Of a DNA stretch of 6,714 bases, positions 1 through 6,714 are shown piece by piece. Location: positions 1-6,714 of the forward strand of contig DFJP01000075.1 of NCBI GenBank assembly GCA_002373085.1, in the 5' to 3' direction. Each line of letters opens with the position of its first letter. Position 1 is the stretch's first letter. The position numbers were made by a program, and so were the translations under genes. The stretch is from Caryophanales bacterium UBA3668 (lineage in GTDB: Bacteria; Bacillota_I; Bacilli_A; RFN20; CAG-826). Below the pieces are notes generated by a model. It was not told where the DNA came from. It made no database searches and saw only the letters and a program-made list of their open reading frames with translations.

Positions 1-26
1 GACAAAGAAAAGTCGTTAAAACTCGG
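1..26 (+). repeat. Conserved 5' box, copy 1 of tandem unit
   Basis: First of three near-identical direct repeats (the others lie at 247-272 and 511-536). It begins GACAAAGAAAAGTCG and continues through TTAAAACTCGG; it differs from the other two at one base (A instead of C in the GACAAAGACAAG part). GAC and GTC can form a tiny stem around an A-rich loop. It lies about 48 bases upstream of a hydrophobic peptide start and probably belongs to the 5' untranslated part of that message. The box starts at the window edge, so the repeat array may continue upstream. Confidence 0.85.
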
Positions 27-73
27 AACGGATAATCTCACAAATCTGGACACAGGAAGTGAGGTGATGCCCA

Positions 74-151
74 TTGAAAGATTTGAAACACATTGTTACC
101 ATCATCTTTCTCTGTCTTCTCCTTTGTTTATTGATTAGTTTCTTTAAATAA
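74..151 (+). CDS. Small hydrophobic peptide 1 (25 aa), candidate type I toxin
   Basis: A 25-residue peptide starting MKDLKHIV, with a hydrophobic stretch from about residue 7 to 24 (IVTIIFLCLLLCLLISFF) and a terminal lysine: a single membrane segment. The start is TTG at 74. The frame is closed by TGA at 65-67, so no earlier start is possible, and GAGGTGAT at 61-68 is an excellent ribosome binding site about six bases upstream. The core C-L-L-L-C-L is shared with peptides 2 and 3, with the first Cys always the twelfth residue from the end. Each peptide is followed by an antisense-promoter module. The size, hydrophobicity and opposing RNA match type I toxins such as Fst or BsrG, but the residues do not let me name a family. 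Toxicity is inferred. Confidence 0.7.
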   Translation: MKDLKHIVTIIFLCLLLCLLISFFK

Positions 152-206
152 AAAAGAAGTCTCTCGACTAACCAACCATTAAGTGTCTGTGAGGCTCCGT
201 TCTTAT
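150..206 (-). ncRNA. Predicted antisense RNA 1 (about 57 nt), candidate antitoxin
   Basis: The promoter at 213-241 on the minus strand would start transcription near 206. The RNA reads back through the 3' untranslated part of peptide 1 and ends at a U-run (A150-A155 on the plus strand) just inside the stop codon. Near its 3' end, AGUC-GAGA-GACU can form a small hairpin before UCUUUUUU. Alternatively its 5' GGAGCCUC pairs with GAGACUUC near the 3' end, with one mismatch. The size and position resemble antitoxin RNA II of Fst/par loci. The existence of the RNA is inferred from promoter and terminator signals. Confidence 0.55.
156..198. terminator. Two-way stem after peptide 1
   Basis: GAAGTCTC (156-163) can pair with GAGGCTCC (191-198) with one mismatch on either strand. 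On the minus strand the stem is followed by a T-run, giving a plausible terminator for the antisense RNA. On the plus strand the following GTTCTT is a poor U-tract, so termination of the peptide message is less certain. The equivalent stem is kept in copies 2 and 3 with different bases. Confidence 0.5.
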
Positions 207-212
207 GGTTAT

Positions 213-241
213 ATTATATAAAAATAATTCACACAAAACAA
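213..241 (-). promoter_or_regulatory. Antisense promoter 1
   Basis: Read on the minus strand: -35 TTGTTT (plus 236-241), a 17-base spacer, and a perfect -10 TATAAT (plus 213-218). The start would fall near 206. The TATAAT is repeated at the same place in copies 2 and 3. The region must also hold the sense promoter of copy 2, for which I see no convincing -35. Confidence 0.65.
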
Positions 242-246
242 CAATC

Positions 247-272
247 GACAAAGACAAGTCGTTAAAACTCGG
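247..272 (+). repeat. Conserved 5' box, copy 2 of tandem unit
   Basis: Identical to copy 3 over the 26 bases. The identity runs on through ATGGAGGCCTC to 284 with one difference (A versus G at 273). GAGGCCTC is palindromic. CCTCTT (281-286) can pair with AGGAGG (306-311), the ribosome binding site of peptide 2, which suggests that translation is held off by the message's own leader. Confidence 0.88.
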
Positions 273-320
273 AATGGAGGCCTCTTGGACTATTCATAAA
301 TAGAAAGGAGGTATCCCACA

Positions 321-410
321 TTGAAAGATGATTTGAAAGAACTAATAAGGATCTTAAAAATCGCCTTGATATGTCTTCTAATATGTCTAATTGGCTTGCT
401 GATGAGATAA
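321..410 (+). CDS. Small hydrophobic peptide 2 (29 aa), candidate type I toxin
   Basis: A 29-residue peptide starting MKDDLKELIRILK, then a hydrophobic run from about residue 14 to 28 (IALICLLICLIGLLM) ending in Arg. The charged amphipathic head followed by one membrane segment fits a small membrane-active peptide. The start is TTG at 321 behind a near-perfect AAAGGAGGT (304-312), eight bases away: the strongest ribosome binding site of the three copies. It shares the MKD start with peptide 1 and the C-L-L-x-C-L core at the same distance from the stop codon. As in copy 1, a reverse promoter lies just downstream. A toxin role is inferred from the layout, not from recognised homology. Confidence 0.72.
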   Translation: MKDDLKELIRILKIALICLLICLIGLLMR

Positions 411-472
411 AAAAAGAAGCTCTCACGATCTAACAACCATTTAAGTAAATCTGAGGGGGCTCCGTTCTTATG
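409..472 (-). ncRNA. Predicted antisense RNA 2 (about 64 nt), candidate antitoxin
   Basis: It would start near 472 from the minus-strand promoter at 478-506 and end in the T-run opposite A409-A415. It covers the 3' untranslated part of peptide 2. GGAGC at its 5' side can pair with GCUUC near the 3' end, extended across an internal loop by CUCA/UGAG, and this closes directly before U7. That makes a better terminator than in copy 1. Antitoxin role inferred. Confidence 0.55.
416..463. terminator. Two-way stem after peptide 2
   Basis: GAAGC (416-420) faces GCTCC (459-463), and CTCA (422-425) faces TGAG (452-455). The A-run before it becomes a T-run for the minus strand. It corresponds to the stems at 156-198 and 649-694. 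Confidence 0.5.
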
Positions 473-477
473 GTTAC

Positions 478-506
478 ATTATATAAAAACCATTTGCTCA
501 ATACAA
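478..506 (-). promoter_or_regulatory. Antisense promoter 2
   Basis: Minus strand: -35 TTGTAT (plus 501-506), 17-base spacer, -10 TATAAT (plus 478-483). Spacing is the same as in antisense promoter 1, although the spacer bases have diverged. Confidence 0.62.
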
Positions 507-510
507 TATC

Positions 511-536
511 GACAAAGACAAGTCGTTAAAACTCGG
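511..536 (+). repeat. Conserved 5' box, copy 3 of tandem unit
   Basis: 26 bases identical to copy 2, with the identity extending to GGAGGCCTC (548) apart from one base. TACAAT at 502-507 just upstream could be a -10 for the sense message starting at the box, but it overlaps the -35 of antisense promoter 2 and no clear -35 goes with it. Confidence 0.88.
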
Positions 537-579
537 GATGGAGGCCTCGCAAATCGGTAAAGGAAATCAAAAAGAAGTC

Positions 580-645
580 ATGATACTTCTGATGACTATC
601 TTGATTTGTCTCATGTTAGCTTTATTAGCTCTGCTGATAAAATAA
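580..645 (+). CDS. Small hydrophobic peptide 3 (21 aa), possibly decayed start
   Basis: From ATG at 580 the frame gives a 21-residue, almost wholly hydrophobic peptide (MILLMTILICLMLALLALLI plus Lys). The Cys is the twelfth residue from the end, as in peptides 1 and 2. The start is doubtful. AAAGGAA (559-565) lies 14 bases upstream, too far to be ideal, and the TTG used by the other copies is absent from the matching place. An in-frame ATG at 538 would give 35 residues, but it sits inside the conserved leader box, has no ribosome binding site, and the same ATG in copy 2 runs into a stop after nine codons. This copy may be translated poorly or be degenerating. Confidence 0.45.
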   Translation: MILLMTILICLMLALLALLIK

Positions 646-703
646 AAAGAGCCCTTACCTACTAGTTAGTACCACCTAAGTGTCGGTGAGGCTCCACCTT
701 TGT
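644..703 (-). ncRNA. Predicted antisense RNA 3 (about 60 nt), candidate antitoxin
   Basis: It would start near 703 and end at the U-run opposite A644-A648. It folds well: GAGCC at the 5' side pairs with GGCUC immediately before the U-run, enclosing a CACC/GGUG hairpin. The loop bases match those of copy 1 (TAAGTGTC on the plus strand). It is the cleanest antisense fold of the three. Antitoxin role inferred. Confidence 0.55.
649..694. terminator. Two-way stem after peptide 3
   Basis: GAGCC (649-653) pairs perfectly with GGCTC (690-694). Inside it CACC (673-676) pairs with GGTG (685-688). A-run on the left, weak T-run on the right. The bases differ from copies 1 and 2 while pairing is kept, which argues that the structure is selected. 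Confidence 0.5.
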
Positions 704-709
704 GGCTAT

Positions 710-718
710 ATTATAGCA
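710..718 (-). promoter_or_regulatory. Antisense promoter 3 (extended -10)
   Basis: Minus strand reads TGC-TATAAT (plus 710-718), an extended -10. The -35 region is poor (TATTCT), so the TG element probably compensates. It lies only about 25 bases from the start of the HTH-hydrolase gene and overlaps the region where that gene's own promoter must be. Confidence 0.55.
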
Positions 719-741
719 TAAATATTTAGGGGAGAATACTT

Positions 742-1596
742 ATGTCTAAAGAAACAATAGGACCAAAAATCAAACAATTTAGAAAGAAAAGGAAACTAAC
801 ACAGGATGAGTTAGCGGAGTCTTTGGGATATTCTGGAAAATCAGTTATTTCTCATATTGAGAAAGGTGACGCTGATATGACTTATGAAAAGATTTTGCTT
901 CTTCTTAGAACATATATGTTAGACGCTAACGAACTATTTGAAGTTAAGAAGATTGATAAGCAATTAAGTGATTTGGAAACCAAAAGAAAAAAAGATAAAA
1001 AAGTAGCAGTGTATATTCATGGTTTATATGGATCTCATAAAGAAGCTGATGATTATTCATATTTAAAAAACGAATATGATGTTGTCGGGCTTGATTATCA
1101 AGACAACAATCCCTGGGAATTAAAAGACATAATCAGAAATGAATTTAATAAAATAACTAAAGGCTATAAAGAAGTTATTATTATTGCTAATTCTATAGGA
1201 GCATTTTACGCATATGAGCACTTAAGTGAGTATGACATCAAGCGCGCTTTCTTTGTTTCTCCTGTTACAAATATGCACCAATTAATATTAAATATAATGA
1301 GTTTGAATAATATTTCTTTAGAAAAACTAAAAGATGAAAAAGTAATCAAAATAGACGATAAAACAACCATCTCCTATGAATATCTTAAATACTTAGAGAA
1401 ACATAAAGACAATTGGGAAACTCCTACAGACATTCTATATGGAGAAAAAGATAATATTGTTTCTATAAACGATATCTCTAGTTTTTTAGTGAGTCATAGC
1501 AATGCTAGATTAACGGTTAAACAAGGCACCGAGCATTATTTCCACACAAACGAAGAAAAAGAATTTATCAAGAAATGGATTTTAAAAGCGTTATAA
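742..1596 (+). CDS. XRE-family HTH / alpha-beta hydrolase fusion protein
   Basis: 284 residues, probably cytoplasmic. Residues 5-65 are a Cro/C1-type helix-turn-helix (KIKQFRKKRKLTQDELAESL, then a recognition helix SVISHIEKG). After a lysine-rich linker (about 66-86), residues 87-284 form an alpha/beta hydrolase: YIHGLYGS at 91-98 as the oxyanion region, the nucleophile elbow ANSIG with Ser151 (Ala in place of the usual first Gly), likely acid Asp237 in YGEKDNIV, and His265 in GTEHYFH (His268 is an alternative). It therefore looks catalytically intact, but the substrate is unknown. It may be a ligand- or ester-sensing regulator; the target DNA is not known. AGGGGAG (728-734) is a good ribosome binding site. 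It follows the peptide array directly and is more AT-rich than the downstream genes (two sampled 60-base lines contain 15 and 16 G+C, against 21 and 23 in the genes after it), suggesting acquisition. Domain calls are firm; biological role is not. Confidence 0.9.
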   Translation: MSKETIGPKIKQFRKKRKLTQDELAESLGYSGKSVISHIEKGDADMTYEKILLLLRTYMLDANELFEVKKIDKQLSDLETKRKKDKKVAVYIHGLYGSHKEADDYSYLKNEYDVVGLDYQDNNPWELKDIIRNEFNKITKGYKEVIIIANSIGAFYAYEHLSEYDIKRAFFVSPVTNMHQLILNIMSLNNISLEKLKDEKVIKIDDKTTISYEYLKYLEKHKDNWETPTDILYGEKDNIVSINDISSFLVSHSNARLTVKQGTEHYFHTNEEKEFIKKWILKAL

Positions 1597-1623
1597 ATTA
1601 TCTTTTATAATTAATCGTTTTTT
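1596..1623 (+). terminator. Weak AT-rich terminator after HTH-hydrolase
   Basis: AATTAT (1596-1601), loop CTTTT, ATAATT (1607-1612), then AATCG and six T. The stem is only A-T pairs, so termination would be inefficient. Confidence 0.35.
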
Positions 1624-1633
1624 CTTGATGTAA

Positions 1634-1642
1634 TGTTATAAT
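1634..1642 (+). promoter_or_regulatory. Extended -10 promoter of the three-gene operon
   Basis: TGT-TATAAT: a perfect -10 with an upstream TG element, 34 bases before the metallophosphoesterase start. There is no good -35 at 17 bases. It is the only clear sense promoter found for the genes at 1676-5356. Confidence 0.6.
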
Positions 1643-1675
1643 AAATATGCTTTTTTAATTATAAAGAGGTAAGTT

Positions 1676-3385
1676 ATGAAAAACATAGTTTTCAAGGTGA
1701 TTAGGATTGTTGGCACAGTTCTAGCGTTTTTTAATGCTTTGATGTTCTTTGCTTTAAGACCATGTTGGAGTGGAATTAGTTCCACACTTGGTTATAAAGG
1801 TGGCGCGAATATAGGACTCTACAATCTCCCACTTATTTTATGTATCGTCTTCTTTGTCGTTTTACTTGCAGATCTAATTCTCAAGAAAATCTTTGCGAGC
1901 AAGAACTGGCTTCATATTGTCTTCTTATCAGTTCACTTTATATTTGCCGCAGCAATAATAATTATTATTGCTTTAGGCGCGATTGATTACATGAGATTTG
2001 TGTGGCCTAAATTCTTTATTAGTGTTGCAGTCCTTGCAGTATTAATGATGTTTTGGTTCTTGCTCTTTATCTATCCAAAACTCCCTATCAAAGATAATAA
2101 ATTTGTTAAATATGGTTTATTAGGATTAGCAAGCACTCTCGCAGTTGCTTTCTTAATCCATTTCTCTATCAATAAGATTACTTATAAACCAGTGGTCTAT
2201 GCGGTTGAAGATAAATATCAAATCGTGTTTTCCACTAACGCGGAAGCTACTGGTTGGGTAGAAATTGGTAGTGAGAAATATTATGACACTTATGCAGGTA
2301 GCACTAAGAAATATTCTAAGATTCATAAAATCGAAGTTCCTATGACTGCCTTAGATGCTGCTAAAAAATATACAGTCCACACTCAAAGATCAATCTACTG
2401 TGGCCCTTTTGGAGGATTTATGGGTAGAGATATTTATCAAGAAGTGGACTTTAAACCAGTCGACACCAGTGATGGACTTAAATATCTCTCATTTAGTGAT
2501 ATTCATATGAATGATTGGCAGTCTAGTAAAACTGCAAGTTATGTTGAAAACTATGATTTCTTAGTCTTAGCAGGAGATATTATCTCTGATGTTGAAACAT
2601 TTGATGACGCTAACTTTAATAATAAAGTTGCGTATGATATTACTCACGGACAAATGCCTGTTGTCTACGCTAGAGGCAATCATGATGTTAAAGGAAGATA
2701 TGGAGAAGAACTCCATAAGTTTGTTGGTGCTAAAGGAGAAGATTTCTTCTATAACTTCTACTTTAATGATGTTTATGGCATTGTTCTTGATTTAGGCGAA
2801 GACCATGATGATGGGTGGTGGGAATATTATGACACCGCTCATTACGCCGAATATCACGCTAAACAAATTGAATTCTTACAACAAGAAGTTGCTAAACACG
2901 AATATGATTCTTATACCTATCATTTAGGCGTTTGCCATATCCCTGTAACATTTGTTAATTCTCGCCATAATCACGAGCAAGTAAAAGCTGATATGACTGC
3001 GTTATTAAATCAAATGGATATTGATATGTTCCTTTGTGGACATCAACATCAAATTATGATTTTTGAACCAGGATTAATTGCTCCTAATACCACTCTTACA
3101 TATAATCCAAACTATAAGAGTGGAACTTATAAAGGATATCTCACTGATTTTAACTTCCCATCATTTATGGTAAGTAAACCAGGTTTCACATTTAGTGATA
3201 GCACAGTACTTCATTCTGCAAAGAGTCAAATTGGTTTTGTGGTGGAAGCTGACTTAGTTTCAAAAACTGAAAAATGTTATTACTTAAATAGTAATGGCCA
3301 AAGAGTGGAGACCATGAATATGTTCTATGACAAGAATTATGGAACAGAAATCAACATTGATATGAACACTAAGATATTTAGTTAA
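1676..3385 (+). CDS. Membrane-anchored metallophosphoesterase
   Basis: 569 residues. Five predicted membrane segments (about 5-27, 49-72, 79-103, 113-133, 146-166) come first. Positive residues at the N-terminus, 70-76 and 135-145 place those parts inside, so the C-terminal part should lie outside the cell. Residues about 172-262 form a beta-rich stretch resembling the N-terminal domain of purple acid phosphatases (weak call). The catalytic calcineurin-like domain runs from about 267: SDIH (Asp275, His277), GD (Asp301), GNHD (Asn335, His336), His421 in VCHIP, and GHQH (His456, His458). All metal-binding positions of the family are present, so a two-metal phosphoesterase is expected. The substrate is unknown; a surface phosphoester, lipid headgroup or cell-wall phosphate is plausible. 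AAAGAGGT (1663-1670) precedes the ATG. First gene of a likely operon, 21 bases before the next. Confidence 0.9.
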   Translation: MKNIVFKVIRIVGTVLAFFNALMFFALRPCWSGISSTLGYKGGANIGLYNLPLILCIVFFVVLLADLILKKIFASKNWLHIVFLSVHFIFAAAIIIIIALGAIDYMRFVWPKFFISVAVLAVLMMFWFLLFIYPKLPIKDNKFVKYGLLGLASTLAVAFLIHFSINKITYKPVVYAVEDKYQIVFSTNAEATGWVEIGSEKYYDTYAGSTKKYSKIHKIEVPMTALDAAKKYTVHTQRSIYCGPFGGFMGRDIYQEVDFKPVDTSDGLKYLSFSDIHMNDWQSSKTASYVENYDFLVLAGDIISDVETFDDANFNNKVAYDITHGQMPVVYARGNHDVKGRYGEELHKFVGAKGEDFFYNFYFNDVYGIVLDLGEDHDDGWWEYYDTAHYAEYHAKQIEFLQQEVAKHEYDSYTYHLGVCHIPVTFVNSRHNHEQVKADMTALLNQMDIDMFLCGHQHQIMIFEPGLIAPNTTLTYNPNYKSGTYKGYLTDFNFPSFMVSKPGFTFSDSTVLHSAKSQIGFVVEADLVSKTEKCYYLNSNGQRVETMNMFYDKNYGTEINIDMNTKIFS

Positions 3386-3406
3386 TTAATTGGGAGGAAA
3401 ATAAAT

Positions 3407-4618
3407 ATGCTTTGGACACTTAAGAAATGTTATTACCGTATTAATCAAAAAGTTCTTAAACTTGGATTATGTTTTATGAACTGGAAAGAACCTGAACTAT
3501 TAGAAGGGGAAGGTGCAGTTTTAAAACTTCCAAAATTCATAAAAGATAAAGGAATTAATAAAGTCCTTATCGTTACAGACAAAGGCTTGATGAATCTTCA
3601 CATCCTTGATCCTTTGTTTGAAGAATTAAAAGCACAAGGAATGGAATATGTTGTCTATGATGGAGTTCAACCAAACCCAACTATTCCAAACATCGAAGAA
3701 TGTAAAGATGTCTATATTAAAAATAACTGTCAAGGAATAATCGCTTTTGGTGGTGGCTCACCAATGGATTGCGCGAAAGCGGCTGGGGCTAGAGTTGTTA
3801 AACCAAAACAATCAGTTCGTAAAATGAGAGGATATCTTAAAGTTGGAAAGAAACTTCCACCTTTCTTTGCCGTACCTACTACAGCAGGAACAGGCTCGGA
3901 AACTACTTTAGCAGCGGTTGTTAGTGATCCAGAGACACATGAAAAGAATGTTATTGCTGATATGCCACTTCGTCCTAAATACGCAGTCCTTGATCCAGCC
4001 TTAACTATTGGATTGCCACCTCACATTACTTCTACCACTGGTATGGATGCTTATACCCATGCAATTGAGTCTTATATTGGTAAGAGCAATGTTAAGTCAA
4101 CAATTAGATATGCAGAAGAAGCTGCTAAAATCATACACGAGAACCTCGAAAAAGCTTACTTTGATGGAAAAGACATGGAAGCAAGAAAAAACATGCTAAA
4201 GGGCTCTTATTTAGCAGGAGCAGCCTTTACAAGAGCATTTGTCGGTTATGTTCACGCAATTGCGCATAATTTAGGTGGTTTATATAACACTCCTCATGGA
4301 CTTGCTAACGCTGTTATTCTTCCATATGTTTTAGAGTGGTATGGTAAGGCTGCTTATCCTAAACTTGCTAAACTCGCTGATATCGTTGGCATTACTAAAG
4401 AAGGCATGACAGTGGAAGAAAAAGGAAAAGCATTCATTGAAGATATTAGAAGAATGAATAAAGTGATGAATATCCCTGAGAAGTTTGACTTCATTAAAGA
4501 AGAAGATATTCCTACTTTGGTTTCTAGAGCGCTTAAAGAAGGTAACCCAGGATATCCAGTTCCTAAAATTATTGACGCGAAAGAAATGGAAAAAATTATC
4601 CGTTCCATTAGAGCGTAG
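3407..4618 (+). CDS. Iron-containing alcohol dehydrogenase (group III)
   Basis: 403 residues, cytoplasmic, NAD(P)-linked interconversion of an aldehyde and an alcohol. Cofactor motif GGGSPMDCAK at 115-124, PTTAGTGSE at 157-165. Metal ligands by comparison with E. coli FucO are Asp214 and His218 in MDAYTHAIE, His283 and His297 in HAIAHNLGGLYNTPHG; His283 and His297 are 14 apart as in FucO. The protein is about 20 residues longer than FucO at the N-terminus. The extension includes a basic start and a WKEPELLEGEGA segment that I associate with a gut-Firmicute subgroup. GGGAGG (3392-3397), nine bases upstream, supports this start over the internal Met24. It lies between a surface phosphoesterase and a lysoplasmalogenase, so a fatty aldehyde is an attractive substrate (inference); short-chain alcohols remain possible. 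Confidence 0.93.
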   Translation: MLWTLKKCYYRINQKVLKLGLCFMNWKEPELLEGEGAVLKLPKFIKDKGINKVLIVTDKGLMNLHILDPLFEELKAQGMEYVVYDGVQPNPTIPNIEECKDVYIKNNCQGIIAFGGGSPMDCAKAAGARVVKPKQSVRKMRGYLKVGKKLPPFFAVPTTAGTGSETTLAAVVSDPETHEKNVIADMPLRPKYAVLDPALTIGLPPHITSTTGMDAYTHAIESYIGKSNVKSTIRYAEEAAKIIHENLEKAYFDGKDMEARKNMLKGSYLAGAAFTRAFVGYVHAIAHNLGGLYNTPHGLANAVILPYVLEWYGKAAYPKLAKLADIVGITKEGMTVEEKGKAFIEDIRRMNKVMNIPEKFDFIKEEDIPTLVSRALKEGNPGYPVPKIIDAKEMEKIIRSIRA

Positions 4619-4642
4619 TCGTTATAATAAAAATATAGATTT

Positions 4643-5356
4643 ATGTTTTATTGGCTAATCCCACTTATTCTAGGAATTGTTTTACTCTCCGTATTTCTTA
4701 TTTTTAGAGTGAAAGAAAAAAGAGTAACCGCAGTTATTATTAAAGGATTTGTTTCTTTGATGTTTATGGCTACCGCAATTGTTGCATGGCAAACATCAAA
4801 TAATCCTCAAAGCACTTTTGGTATTTATGTTCTAATTGCGATGTTTTTTGGATTATTAGGAGATGTATTCTTAGATCTTAAATATATCGTTCTACAAAAA
4901 GAGATGTTTTACACAATCCTAGGGTTCTGCGCTTTTGGAATTGGACATATTTTCTTTACGATTGGTTTATTTACCCATTTCTTTAGTTTCACTAGTAGTG
5001 CTTTATATATTGTGATTCCTGTTATTATCACTTTAGTTTTATTAGCAATCACTTTATTAATGGAAGTATTTACCAAAATTAGATATCAAAAGATGAAGCC
5101 ATTTGTTATCGCTTATGGATTATGTCTATTCTTTACAGTTTCAATATATGGTAGTGCGATGATTCAAAATGGATGCAACACTCAATTCATCCTTTTAGCG
5201 GTAGGATTTATTTCCTTCATGTTATCGGATTTGATTTTAAACAACACTTATTTTGCTCCTGGATTTACTTCCGCAGGATTTATTATTTCTAATCATATTT
5301 TGTATTATGCGGCTCAATTCCTAATTGCGGTGTCGCTATTCTATTTACCGCTATAG
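4643..5356 (+). CDS. Lysoplasmalogenase, YhhN/TMEM86 family
   Basis: 237 residues, almost entirely membrane segments (about eight). Family marks: GDVFLD at 73-78, His102 in GIGHIFF, SDLIL at 195-199, and SNHILYYAAQFLI near the end (216-228). Members of this family cleave the vinyl-ether bond of lysoplasmalogens, giving a fatty aldehyde and a glycerophospho-headgroup; many bacterial members are untested, so the reaction here is by family. It lies 24 bases after the alcohol dehydrogenase with no terminator between, so it is probably co-transcribed. Oddly there is no Shine-Dalgarno before the ATG (TAATAAAAATATAGATTT). A TATAAT at 4623-4628 could give a very short leader, but its -35 is poor. The gene ends just before a strong terminator. 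Confidence 0.85.
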   Translation: MFYWLIPLILGIVLLSVFLIFRVKEKRVTAVIIKGFVSLMFMATAIVAWQTSNNPQSTFGIYVLIAMFFGLLGDVFLDLKYIVLQKEMFYTILGFCAFGIGHIFFTIGLFTHFFSFTSSALYIVIPVIITLVLLAITLLMEVFTKIRYQKMKPFVIAYGLCLFFTVSIYGSAMIQNGCNTQFILLAVGFISFMLSDLILNNTYFAPGFTSAGFIISNHILYYAAQFLIAVSLFYLPL

Positions 5357-5363
5357 AAAGTAA

Positions 5364-5410
5364 CAAAAAAGCTATCTGGTCGCATAACTAGATAGCTTAT
5401 TTTTTATTTT
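5364..5410. terminator. Strong bidirectional intrinsic terminator
   Basis: AAGCTATCT (5369-5377) pairs perfectly with AGATAGCTT (5390-5398) around a 12-base loop. An A-run lies on the left (AACAAAAAA) and T6-A-T4 on the right, so it serves both the operon ending at 5356 and the convergent lipoprotein gene ending at 5413. Confidence 0.92.
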
Positions 5411-5412
5411 GC

Positions 5413-6336
5413 TTATTTTGTGGTTCCTTCTGGTTGCATTAAGAATTGTTCAAACTTATCTGCAAAGAGATGACCTAATTTGATTTCGGATTCTGAATCC
5501 CAGTGGGCTCCATCAACATTTCCGATTGGCTCTAAGTGAGTATGTAAGCCTTCTTTAAGAGAATCAATATAGAAGTTATATTCACTTTCAGCCGCGAATT
5601 CTTCTTTGGCTTTATTTACTTGAGCGAAGTAGACCCATTCATGGTAGCTGCTAATACCAGCGTCAATAAATGGAATAATATGTTCGCCTTCGTATTCTTT
5701 GAAGTCTTCTCTGACATTACCAACAAAAGTTCTTAAGTTAGCTTTGTATTGTTTGTAATAACCTTGATAAGAATCGCCTTCACCTTGCATCCAGCAGAAC
5801 GCTTTGATTGTTGGATCAAATCCCATCTTCTTAAGAGCGTCGATTTGTTCTCTAACATAAGCGACAAATTTTGGATACATTGGAGAATTCTCTTTATCTA
5901 GCCAATCGTCCTTGAGATTGCTACCTCCACACGCGAACTTGATGAGGAATAATTTGTCAGCGTATTTTTCGTGGCATTGTTCAGCAATACCGATTTCTGG
6001 TCCAAAGGAATGTTTTCCATTTCCTTGGCCTAATTTGACAGGAACAAATCCAGTAGAAGTGTTTTGTGGATAATAAGTAACTCCACCTGCAGGCCAATCC
6101 TTTGTCCAGCAGTCGTGGGCCATCTTAATTGTTGGATATCCAGCACTATATTCGTTAAATTTATCCATTCCCATAGAACCAGGAATTTGATTTGACCAAG
6201 TGCAGCCAACTCCATTAGATTGTCCGGAGATAATGACGACATCAACTTTTTGTTGTGGCGCTGGATTATTGTGACCACAACCGGCAAGTGAAATAATCAT
6301 AGGTGAAAGTAAAAGTAGTGTTAATTTATTTTTCAT
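5413..6336 (-). CDS. SGNH/SASA-domain esterase lipoprotein
   Basis: 307 residues with a lipoprotein signal: MKNKLTLLLLSPMIISLAGC, cleaved before Cys20, so it is exported and lipid-anchored. The rest matches the sialate O-acetylesterase (SASA, DUF303, CE6-like) type of SGNH hydrolase. ISGQSN carries the nucleophile Ser40; Gly137/Gly138 lie in FACGGSN; WMQGEGD at 182-188 is the characteristic third block; DGAH gives Asp275 and His278 as the rest of the triad. All catalytic residues are present and the length is normal. It probably removes acetyl groups from sialic acid, xylan or another acetylated glycan; the substrate cannot be told from sequence. The ribosome binding site is weak (AAAG, about nine bases upstream). 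It is transcribed towards the preceding operon and ends at the shared terminator. The three GTAAAC repeats upstream may control it. Confidence 0.9.
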   Translation of the reverse strand: MKNKLTLLLLSPMIISLAGCGHNNPAPQQKVDVVIISGQSNGVGCTWSNQIPGSMGMDKFNEYSAGYPTIKMAHDCWTKDWPAGGVTYYPQNTSTGFVPVKLGQGNGKHSFGPEIGIAEQCHEKYADKLFLIKFACGGSNLKDDWLDKENSPMYPKFVAYVREQIDALKKMGFDPTIKAFCWMQGEGDSYQGYYKQYKANLRTFVGNVREDFKEYEGEHIIPFIDAGISSYHEWVYFAQVNKAKEEFAAESEYNFYIDSLKEGLHTHLEPIGNVDGAHWDSESEIKLGHLFADKFEQFLMQPEGTTK

Positions 6337-6360
6337 AGCATCTTTATTTTATCCCTTGTT

Positions 6361-6388
6361 TTAGTAAACAAACCATAGAATATGTAAA
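6361..6388 (-). promoter_or_regulatory. Candidate promoter of the esterase lipoprotein
   Basis: Minus strand: TTTACA (plus 6383-6388), 16-base spacer, TACTAA (plus 6361-6366). The -10 is imperfect, so this is only the best of several weak candidates. The elements overlap the GTAAAC repeats. Confidence 0.35.
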
Positions 6389-6402
6389 CTTCAGTAAACA
6401 AA
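6363..6402. repeat. Phased GTAAAC repeats (candidate operator)
   Basis: AGTAAACAAA occurs at 6363-6372 and again at 6393-6402. A third GTAAAC lies between them at 6384-6389. GTAAAC starts at 6364, 6384 and 6394, spaced 20 and 10 bases, that is on one face of the helix. Position upstream of the lipoprotein gene suggests a regulator site. No known operator is recognised. Confidence 0.4.
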
Positions 6403-6410
6403 AATATAAT

Positions 6411-6480
6411 AACTACAGAGTAGTTGCGAAAAATAAACATCTGATAATTGCTTTTTTCATAACTTTTACTCTAAAAAGTT
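6411..6480 (-). other. Two small hairpins and a 15-codon frame upstream of the lipoprotein
   Basis: AACTAC-AGA-GTAGTT (6411-6425) and AACTTTT-ACTCTA-AAAAGTT (6461-6480) are perfect short inverted repeats. Between and partly within them, a minus-strand frame (6460 to 6413) encodes MKKAIIRCLFFATTL and stops inside the first hairpin. It looks like a signal-peptide fragment or a leader peptide. The ribosome binding site is weak, so coding is unproven. Confidence 0.2.
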
Positions 6481-6503
6481 TAGTCACAATCACGATAATA
6501 TTG

Positions 6504-6532
6504 TTGTATATCCCATTATTTTGAAGTAAAAT
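6504..6532 (+). promoter_or_regulatory. Promoter of the candidate structured RNA
   Basis: TTGTAT (6504-6509), 17-base spacer, TAAAAT (6527-6532). The predicted start is A6539, four bases before the first strand of the long stem. Confidence 0.5.
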
Positions 6533-6538
6533 TTAATC

Positions 6539-6692
6539 AGAGAATGATGATCGGCTATCTAATGGCGGCTGGTCAATTCATATTTACCTTTAGTCATATA
6601 CATCATCATTTTGCGAAAACTCGCTATTGTGCGATTTGTGCTTAACAAATAGCAAAATGGGTAAAAGGACCATATCGTTGGCCTTTTTATTT
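6539..6692 (+). ncRNA. Candidate structured non-coding RNA, family unknown
   Basis: About 154 nt between the promoter at 6504-6532 and an intrinsic terminator. AATGATGAT (6543-6551) pairs perfectly with ATCATCATT (6602-6610), closing a 50-base domain. Next come GCGA-AAAC-TCGC (6613-6624) and ATTTGT-GCTTA-ACAAAT (6634-6650); GCTATT (6623-6628) and AATAGC (6648-6653) offer a competing pairing. The terminator stem ends it. It does not match any riboswitch, T-box, tmRNA or 6S pattern I know. It could be a small RNA or the regulatory leader of a gene beyond the window. A 33-codon frame (6544-6645) inside it has no ribosome binding site and is probably chance. Confidence 0.4.
6663..6692 (+). terminator. 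Intrinsic terminator near window end
   Basis: AAAAGG-A-CCA (6663-6672) pairs with TGGCCTTTT (6679-6687) with one bulged A and loop TATCGT, followed by further T and ATTT. No plus-strand protein gene precedes it, which is why a non-coding RNA is proposed. Confidence 0.7.
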
Positions 6693-6714
6693 GTCTGAGC
6701 CATCGTGCGAACGA

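Follow-up and report, generated by a model that had tools for sequence, protein, structure and literature searches.

Tandem chromosomal modules resembling type I toxin-antitoxin systems in uncultured Bacilli, with a putative RNA switch between the ends of the mRNA

The first 720 bases of a 6,714-nucleotide stretch from Caryophanales bacterium UBA3668 (contig DFJP01000075.1, positions 1 to 6,714; this whole stretch is called the window below) hold a unit of roughly 230 nucleotides (nt) repeated three times head to tail, the first base of the window being the first base of unit 1. A small, often hydrophobic toxic peptide and an antisense RNA that lowers its synthesis are general traits of type I toxin-antitoxin systems, and we propose, at a probability of roughly 0.7, that the units belong to a chromosomally encoded family of type I toxin-antitoxin-like modules in which binding of an antisense RNA to the 3' untranslated region (UTR) of the peptide mRNA would keep its Shine-Dalgarno sequence (SD) closed. 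This reading is based on helices identified by covariation, on a coding frame and on an antisense promoter motif, from which we infer that the transcripts exist, that the peptide is toxic and which way the switch runs. The module is present across dozens of uncultured bacteria, metagenome-assembled genomes among them, and the family is apparently undescribed.

In the proposed mechanism, each unit would give rise to an mRNA of ~230 nt encoding a single-pass hydrophobic peptide of 25-29 amino acids (aa), putatively a membrane toxin. An antisense RNA of ~60 nt, transcribed convergently, would start past the 3' end at a -10 promoter close to consensus and usually of the extended type, span the 3'UTR and terminate at the stop codon of the peptide. 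On the nascent mRNA, a CCTC just 3' of a conserved 5' box would pair with the SD and shut it. Once the 3' end is finished, its GAGG-CTCCGTT segment would pair with AACGGAG-CCTC at the 5' end, drawing CCTC off the SD and rendering the mRNA translatable. The antisense RNA would bind this same 3' segment, so that CCTC would fall back on the SD, and cleavage of the sense-antisense duplex by RNase III would add to the closure.

The coding frame and the predicted antisense gene

Our collection comprises 100 units in which the box has no more than five mismatches. Duplicates were removed by comparing the first 120 nt, and two of the 100 (L014:7933, L015:7936) are truncated versions of units that are also present at full length. 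Relatives that keep the box and stems and lack the frame, a pattern named in the original prediction as speaking against it, are the minority: 92 of the 100 units carry a hydrophobic frame, and three of the eight that do not are cut by the end of the sequence. Sorting by regular expressions sets aside four units cut by an end. Among the remaining 96, 88 have a frame of 25 aa or longer; an SD, such a frame and an antisense module occur together in 78; seven have frame and module with no recognised SD; and eight have no full frame, four of which keep the module. For some units the label is purely formal, as L010:1800 may start at CTG, L080:2018 carries an SD variant and the module of L063 was found by R2, our model of the 3' module. 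The units are related and not independent samples, and the shuffle counts given throughout are therefore not probabilities.

Selection on the 25-29 aa frame is purifying. Across 86 distinct frames (window unit 3, L004:5152, L010:1800 and L071:1974 were dropped), the ratio of non-synonymous to synonymous differences (pN/pS) is 0.35, compared with values of 0.76 and 1.62 for the other two frames, and among the 365 pairs that differ by 5-35%, pN is below pS in 99.7%. The consensus is approximately MKxxxKExxxLLKIALICLLLSLLALLxK, with Cys at the main Cys column in 75 of the 86 frames. The original prediction could assign the peptides to no nameable family, and profile searches agree: neither the three window peptides in Pfam nor six family-spanning peptides (including those of window units 1 and 2) in either Pfam or NCBIfam reached any cut-off, the best score being 13.3 bits for a phenol-soluble modulin model whose cut-off is 33. 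Both databases contain Fst models, none of which was matched by the peptides tried, and homology to TxpA/BsrG peptides, compared by profile only, likewise gave no match in Pfam or NCBIfam. A search of 4227 Rfam families found nothing at the array, the lone match at E<=1 lying at 3020-3090 and below its gathering score, and no description of such a family was found in the open-licence literature of PubMed Central. Relatives may be listed under some name in protein databases, subscription journals or preprints.

The putative antisense promoter is marked by an exact reverse TATAAT downstream of 84 of the 90 frames with a TATA-like end, compared with 4.9% in shuffles, and the other six have one mismatch; two of the 92 frames had no such end (L064, L076), giving a worst-case rate of 84/92. 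The -10 is preceded by TGn, that is, extended, in 68 of the 90, and TTGACA with at most two mismatches is found in the -35 region in 53. The module further contains a terminator-like hairpin with an A/U run. Because the automatic structure of R2 is poor, R2 works mainly as a sequence model; it gave 103 matches in the 69 loci searched, some being one place held in two loci. Twelve of these modules stand alone, with neither box nor frame, nine with an exact TATAAT and at least five lacking part of the conserved arm, and stand-alone modules occur in tandem ~120 nt behind a full unit in L082, L083, L084, L086, L088 and L089. Since several are related, the twelve are not twelve independent events.

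Competing helices in the predicted mRNA

For the analysis of covariation we aligned 87 units (alignment A1), excluding 13 of the 100 (eight frameless and five lacking the 3' end or full module); units found only by R1, a covariance model of the 5'UTR, such as eight in genome G115, were also left out of the alignments. A helix between A1 columns 27-33 and 271-277 links the two ends of the unit, with 95.8% of cells paired and double-sided changes in all seven of its pairs; at L011:789, the arms read AGCCAAA and TTTGGCT. In a shuffle test of distinct arm types, in which some arms were mis-extracted, 0 of 2000 shuffles were as high. In the structure as a whole, double-changed cells number 171, compared with 55.4 for shuffles (0/500 as high), and when the partner is shifted by 1-3 columns, pairing falls from 85% to 32-51%. 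The SD hairpin, formed by CCTCNN and NNGAGG, is 93.4% paired, with 43 double-changed cells against 17.6 shuffled, and no shuffle among 500 was as high on three of five covariation measures. At the very 5' end, a GxC..GxC hairpin is paired in 87 of 87 rows, pair 2-13 occurring as AU in 51, UA in 28 and GC in 8, and pair 3-12 as CG in 86 and GC in one. The L011 array, the longest with six units, alone holds GAC..GTC, GTC..GAC and GAG..CTC versions, and different versions also occur within the arrays of L061 and L074, so that the change was not one inherited event; the shuffle test of distinct types (79/2000 as high) is weak, because there are only four versions of this hairpin. A local 3' hairpin gives a modest signal, its own pairing being 13.8 compared with 12.6 shuffled (0/300 as high). 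The original prediction had noted a conserved stem in each unit, and the conserved pairing stands, but it is distributed over several alternative helices, one of which joins the 5' and 3' ends.

Fold models of 86 units, a set that excludes window unit 3 for its missing SD, suggest how these helices could compete. Pairing between the SD and CCTC is 0.95 in the 5'UTR alone and 0.89 in an RNA ending at the stop codon. At full length the 5'-3' helix reaches 0.89 (above 0.5 in 83/86) and SD-CCTC pairing is down to 0.37, returning to 0.91 when the 3'UTR is blocked, as binding of the antisense RNA would do. Blocking also makes the SD less accessible than it is in the full RNA in 77 of the 86 units. 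The CCTC of the Cys-Leu codons (A1 columns 155-158) is a possible second anti-SD in these models, and since it can pair with the SD in the folds, part of the Cys-Leu conservation may lie at the RNA level.

A number of observations weigh against the proposed reading. In the full-length fold only 0.14 of the SD is unpaired, with 0.30 paired to the open reading frame (ORF) in addition to the share held by CCTC, and nearly half of this ORF pairing involves the CCTC at the Cys-Leu codons. That the 5'-3' helix activates translation is therefore our preferred direction and not a demonstrated one. The SD hairpin does not exceed shuffles for covarying pairs (201/500) or pair types (299/500), an extra CCA/TGG stem that would form a 3' pseudoknot is 64% paired and is not claimed, and the five units lacking the 3' end or full module had been dropped from A1 before pairs were counted. 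Three of the 96 units have SD and frame and no recognisable antisense module (L047, L064, L066), two of them, L047 and L066, lying near contig ends. Finally, a sense TATAAT with at most one mismatch lies 3-9 nt from the box in 23 of 67 first or solitary units, 14 of them at 6 nt, and in 10 of 32 inner tandem units, at 3, 8 or 9 nt (eight at 9 nt), with ~13.5% in shuffles; none of the 32 inner units has it at the usual 6 nt. Their own sense promoter is therefore only putative, and inner units may depend on read-through. As a separate observation, in L047, beyond ~1660, and in L066, on its minus strand, other sequence replaces the 3' module and ends in a common stretch, ATAGTTTCGAAACAAGTCCCGTT.

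While the fold models are compatible with activation by the 5'-3' helix, one could also speculate that the switch runs in reverse, the 5'-3' form being an inert store that requires 3' trimming. Such a store is what the long-distance interaction of aapA3/IsoA3 in Helicobacter pylori constitutes, and that system (PMC6733600) shares with our units the 5'-3' interaction and SD-sequestering hairpins in the 5'UTR and ORF, activation there proceeding by 3' truncation. The 5'-3' form could serve likewise here, as most of the SD stays paired at full length, partly with the ORF. In our models, however, an RNA cut at the stop codon has its SD closed by CCTC, the opposite of aapA3, and the 5'-3' helix appears to compete with SD sequestration; we regard the reversed switch as unlikely, though still a serious contender within the toxin-antitoxin reading.

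The window array and its relatives

The original prediction read positions 1-720 as a tandem array of three units, and box, hydrophobic frame and reverse TATAAT are indeed each present three times. The boxes, at 1-26, 247-272 and 511-536, all on the plus strand, start 246 and 264 bases apart, and the Cys stands twelve residues before the end of each frame, both as originally noted; three box matches compare with 0.00 expected in 200 dinucleotide shuffles. In unit 1, the box marks the predicted mRNA 5' end and contains the 5' hairpin (1-3 with 12-14) followed by the conserved TTAAAACTCGG. The 5' arm AACGGAT (27-33) and the anti-SD TCTCAC (36-41), whose partner is GTGAGG at 59-64, precede the SD region GTGAGGTG at 59-66, with GAGGTG at 61-66, and a 25-aa ORF with a TTG start at 74-151, MKDLKHIVTIIFLCLLLCLLISFFK. 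The 3' arm CTCCGTT lies at 195-201, on the plus strand like the preceding elements, and a predicted antisense RNA of ~57 nt would occupy 150-206 of the minus strand, its U-tract being the complement of the A-run 3' of the ORF stop, with its -10 TATAAT at 213-218 (minus). Unit 2 carries, on the plus strand, the 5' arm AATGGAG (273-279), the anti-SD CCTC (281-284), the SD GGAGGT (307-312), a 29-aa ORF with a TTG start (321-410), MKDDLKELIRILKIALICLLICLIGLLMR, and the 3' arm CTCCGTT (460-466), and, on the minus strand, a predicted antisense RNA at 411-471 and its TATAAT at 478-483.

Unit 3 retains the box, the arms GATGGAG (537-543) and CTCCACC (692-698) and a hydrophobic frame ending at 645, of 21 aa if the ATG at 580 is taken as the start (580-645) or 35 aa if that at 538 is taken, all on the plus strand. 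A predicted antisense RNA at 645-703 (minus) has its extended -10, TGCTATAAT, intact, with TATAAT at 710-715 (minus). An SD is seen in window units 1 and 2 only, the A1 SD columns being empty for unit 3, which also has no usual start codon. Without an SD, unit 3 is therefore probably not translated, and so probably a toxin-dead copy that has kept its antisense gene. Of the three diverged toxin-antitoxin pairs originally proposed, the type I-like architecture with a putative antisense gene over the 3' end thus holds up at the sequence level, but the pairs are not three complete ones. Other units resemble unit 3, namely L004:5152 (start codon ACG), L071:1974 (early stop) and L063 (shortened); in L008:783, frame and antisense -10 are both lost.

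It had further been suggested that each antitoxin might be specific to its own unit. In multi-unit loci, predicted antisense-mRNA duplexes average -112.5 kcal/mol for 46 cognate and -48.5 kcal/mol for 102 non-cognate combinations, and each antitoxin should therefore prefer its own unit; this preference is not exclusive, as the strongest non-cognate duplex reaches -103.2 kcal/mol and the target regions have a mean similarity of 72%. A more ambitious reading would make the antitoxin an allosteric RNA switch, with the mRNA 3' end capturing the anti-SD and the antisense RNA competing for it, in tandem units that discriminate against one another and shed toxin-less antitoxin genes, and with the invariant 5' box common to a second peptide family in another order. 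As a whole we hold this only tentatively and consider it rather doubtful.

The 26-base box was also sought in related genomes: the pattern AAGTCGTTAAAACTCGGNANGG occurs in 12 contigs of uncultured Bacilli in a genome collection, under the titles Bacilli, Bacillales or Erysipelotrichaceae. Within one order (the main order), a looser box pattern is found in 50 of 279 genomes, the reversed pattern giving 0 matches in every genome, and R1, built from 51 sequences, finds matches in 57 of the 279 at E<=1e-3 and in 53 at E<=1e-5, with more than 100 matches in this order. G115 alone has eight (contigs C11, C13, C18, C24), several of them paired. In wider searches, R1 matched 12 of 395 genomes of the class at E<=1e-3 and 11 of 295 genomes of the phylum, where those in G629 and G655 are weak; in both sets matches better than 1e-6 lie only in the main order. 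Matches in L112 (E 3.3e-4) and L113 (7.3e-4) resemble protein-coding sequence and were taken as chance, as were two weak matches in a phage collection (8% and 4% of the query) and single matches of a 17-mer core in three viral contigs, whose surroundings were not inspected. A 29-nt pattern was found in no viral contig, and a plasmid collection gave no match to the query.

In another order, three of 43 genomes (L109/G500, L110/G305, L111/G494) carry an exact GACAAAACAAAGTCTTTAAAACTCCAGACTA ahead of an SD, followed by a different 27-aa peptide (MKFLYELFKTMADVLIICNVNISDPKC and kin) and a terminator-like hairpin. Among the 395 class genomes, a 24-nt box pattern occurs only in these three and in three genomes of the main order, with 0 in the control.

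Alternative explanations and known systems

The array is followed by a gene for a 284-aa protein in which an XRE-type helix-turn-helix (HTH) domain is fused to an alpha/beta hydrolase (742-1596, plus strand), and the predicted antisense promoter of unit 3 lies directly before it. The other window genes encode a metallophosphoesterase, an iron alcohol dehydrogenase and a YhhN protein, with a SASA-type esterase on the opposite strand. The peptides could thus be imagined as hydrophobic signals for the neighbouring HTH regulator, whose gene follows the window array and ten other clusters. Given that these are 11 of 63 clusters only, the gene is not an obligatory part of the module, and we rejected it as a partner; the remaining 52 clusters have a different gene as the next long frame downstream, or none within reach, and such unlinked units mostly refute the signal-peptide idea and leave it very improbable. 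Still less credible is a non-coding repeat resembling a miniature inverted-repeat transposable element with incidental frames. Complementary ends, multiple copies and intergenic location would suit such an element, but purifying selection in the true frame, as measured by pN/pS, led us to reject it, SD and start codon are usually kept, and the seven pairs between the unit ends covary despite divergence of the units.

A more substantial alternative is that the peptide is a small regulatory or structural membrane peptide and not a toxin, its dose being controlled by an antisense RNA in cis together with an RNA switch acting on translation. Toxicity cannot be read from sequence, purifying selection is expected for any useful peptide, and the units occur in many chromosomal contexts with unrelated neighbours, all of which would be compatible with this view. 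Tandem multiplication with divergence, however, fits toxin-antitoxin dynamics better, and damaged frames with a kept antisense module, together with stand-alone antisense modules, favour a toxin-antitoxin system, so that we judge a non-toxic peptide distinctly improbable.

Among known systems, the Ibs/Sib and Ldr arrays of Escherichia coli resemble ours by description, as tandem, diverged genes for small hydrophobic peptides with antisense RNAs of their own. The Fst/par systems (par_pAD1, fst-Sm/srSm; PMC7472228, PMC3543317) share with our units, as predicted, an mRNA of ~230 nt, a short hydrophobic peptide, a small antisense RNA converging on the 3' end, and an SD-sequestering 5' stem-loop with a 5' helix, the SD stem-loop here being supported by covariation and folding. 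Our units differ from them in peptides that match no Pfam or NCBIfam model, in mutually complementary mRNA ends, an invariant 5' box and orphan antisense modules, and in showing no clear direct repeats of the DRa/DRb type shared by the RNA I 5'UTR and RNA II; 8-mers at the SD and the 3' arm are 0.50 identical against 0.47 in shuffles (16/1000 as high).

The bsrG/SR4 and txpA/RatA systems of Bacillus subtilis likewise have an antitoxin that pairs with the 3' end, the position at which our antisense RNA is predicted. Binding of SR4 to the bsrG 3' end lengthens an SD-sequestering helix and so closes the SD (PMC6562991), a precedent that supports SD closure from the 3' end as proposed here. In contrast to these systems, the peptides here are unrelated by profile, the predicted antisense RNA is ~60 nt where the overlap there is 100-140 bp, and SD control seems to act through a covarying 5'-3' helix. 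The enterobacterial timPR system (PMC11228461) resembles the proposed mechanism in its mutually exclusive mRNA folds, translation without RNase processing and a small RNA that destroys the active fold, but the activating element there is a pseudoknot in the 5'UTR.

Peptides as short as these are hard to detect by homology search. R1 has more than 100 matches in the main order, and with 87 full units aligned, covariation suffices to define an mRNA switch ahead of experiment. Diverged tandem units, together with the orphan antisense modules, open the splitting of cognate specificity to direct tests, as well as the question whether antitoxins outlive their toxins.

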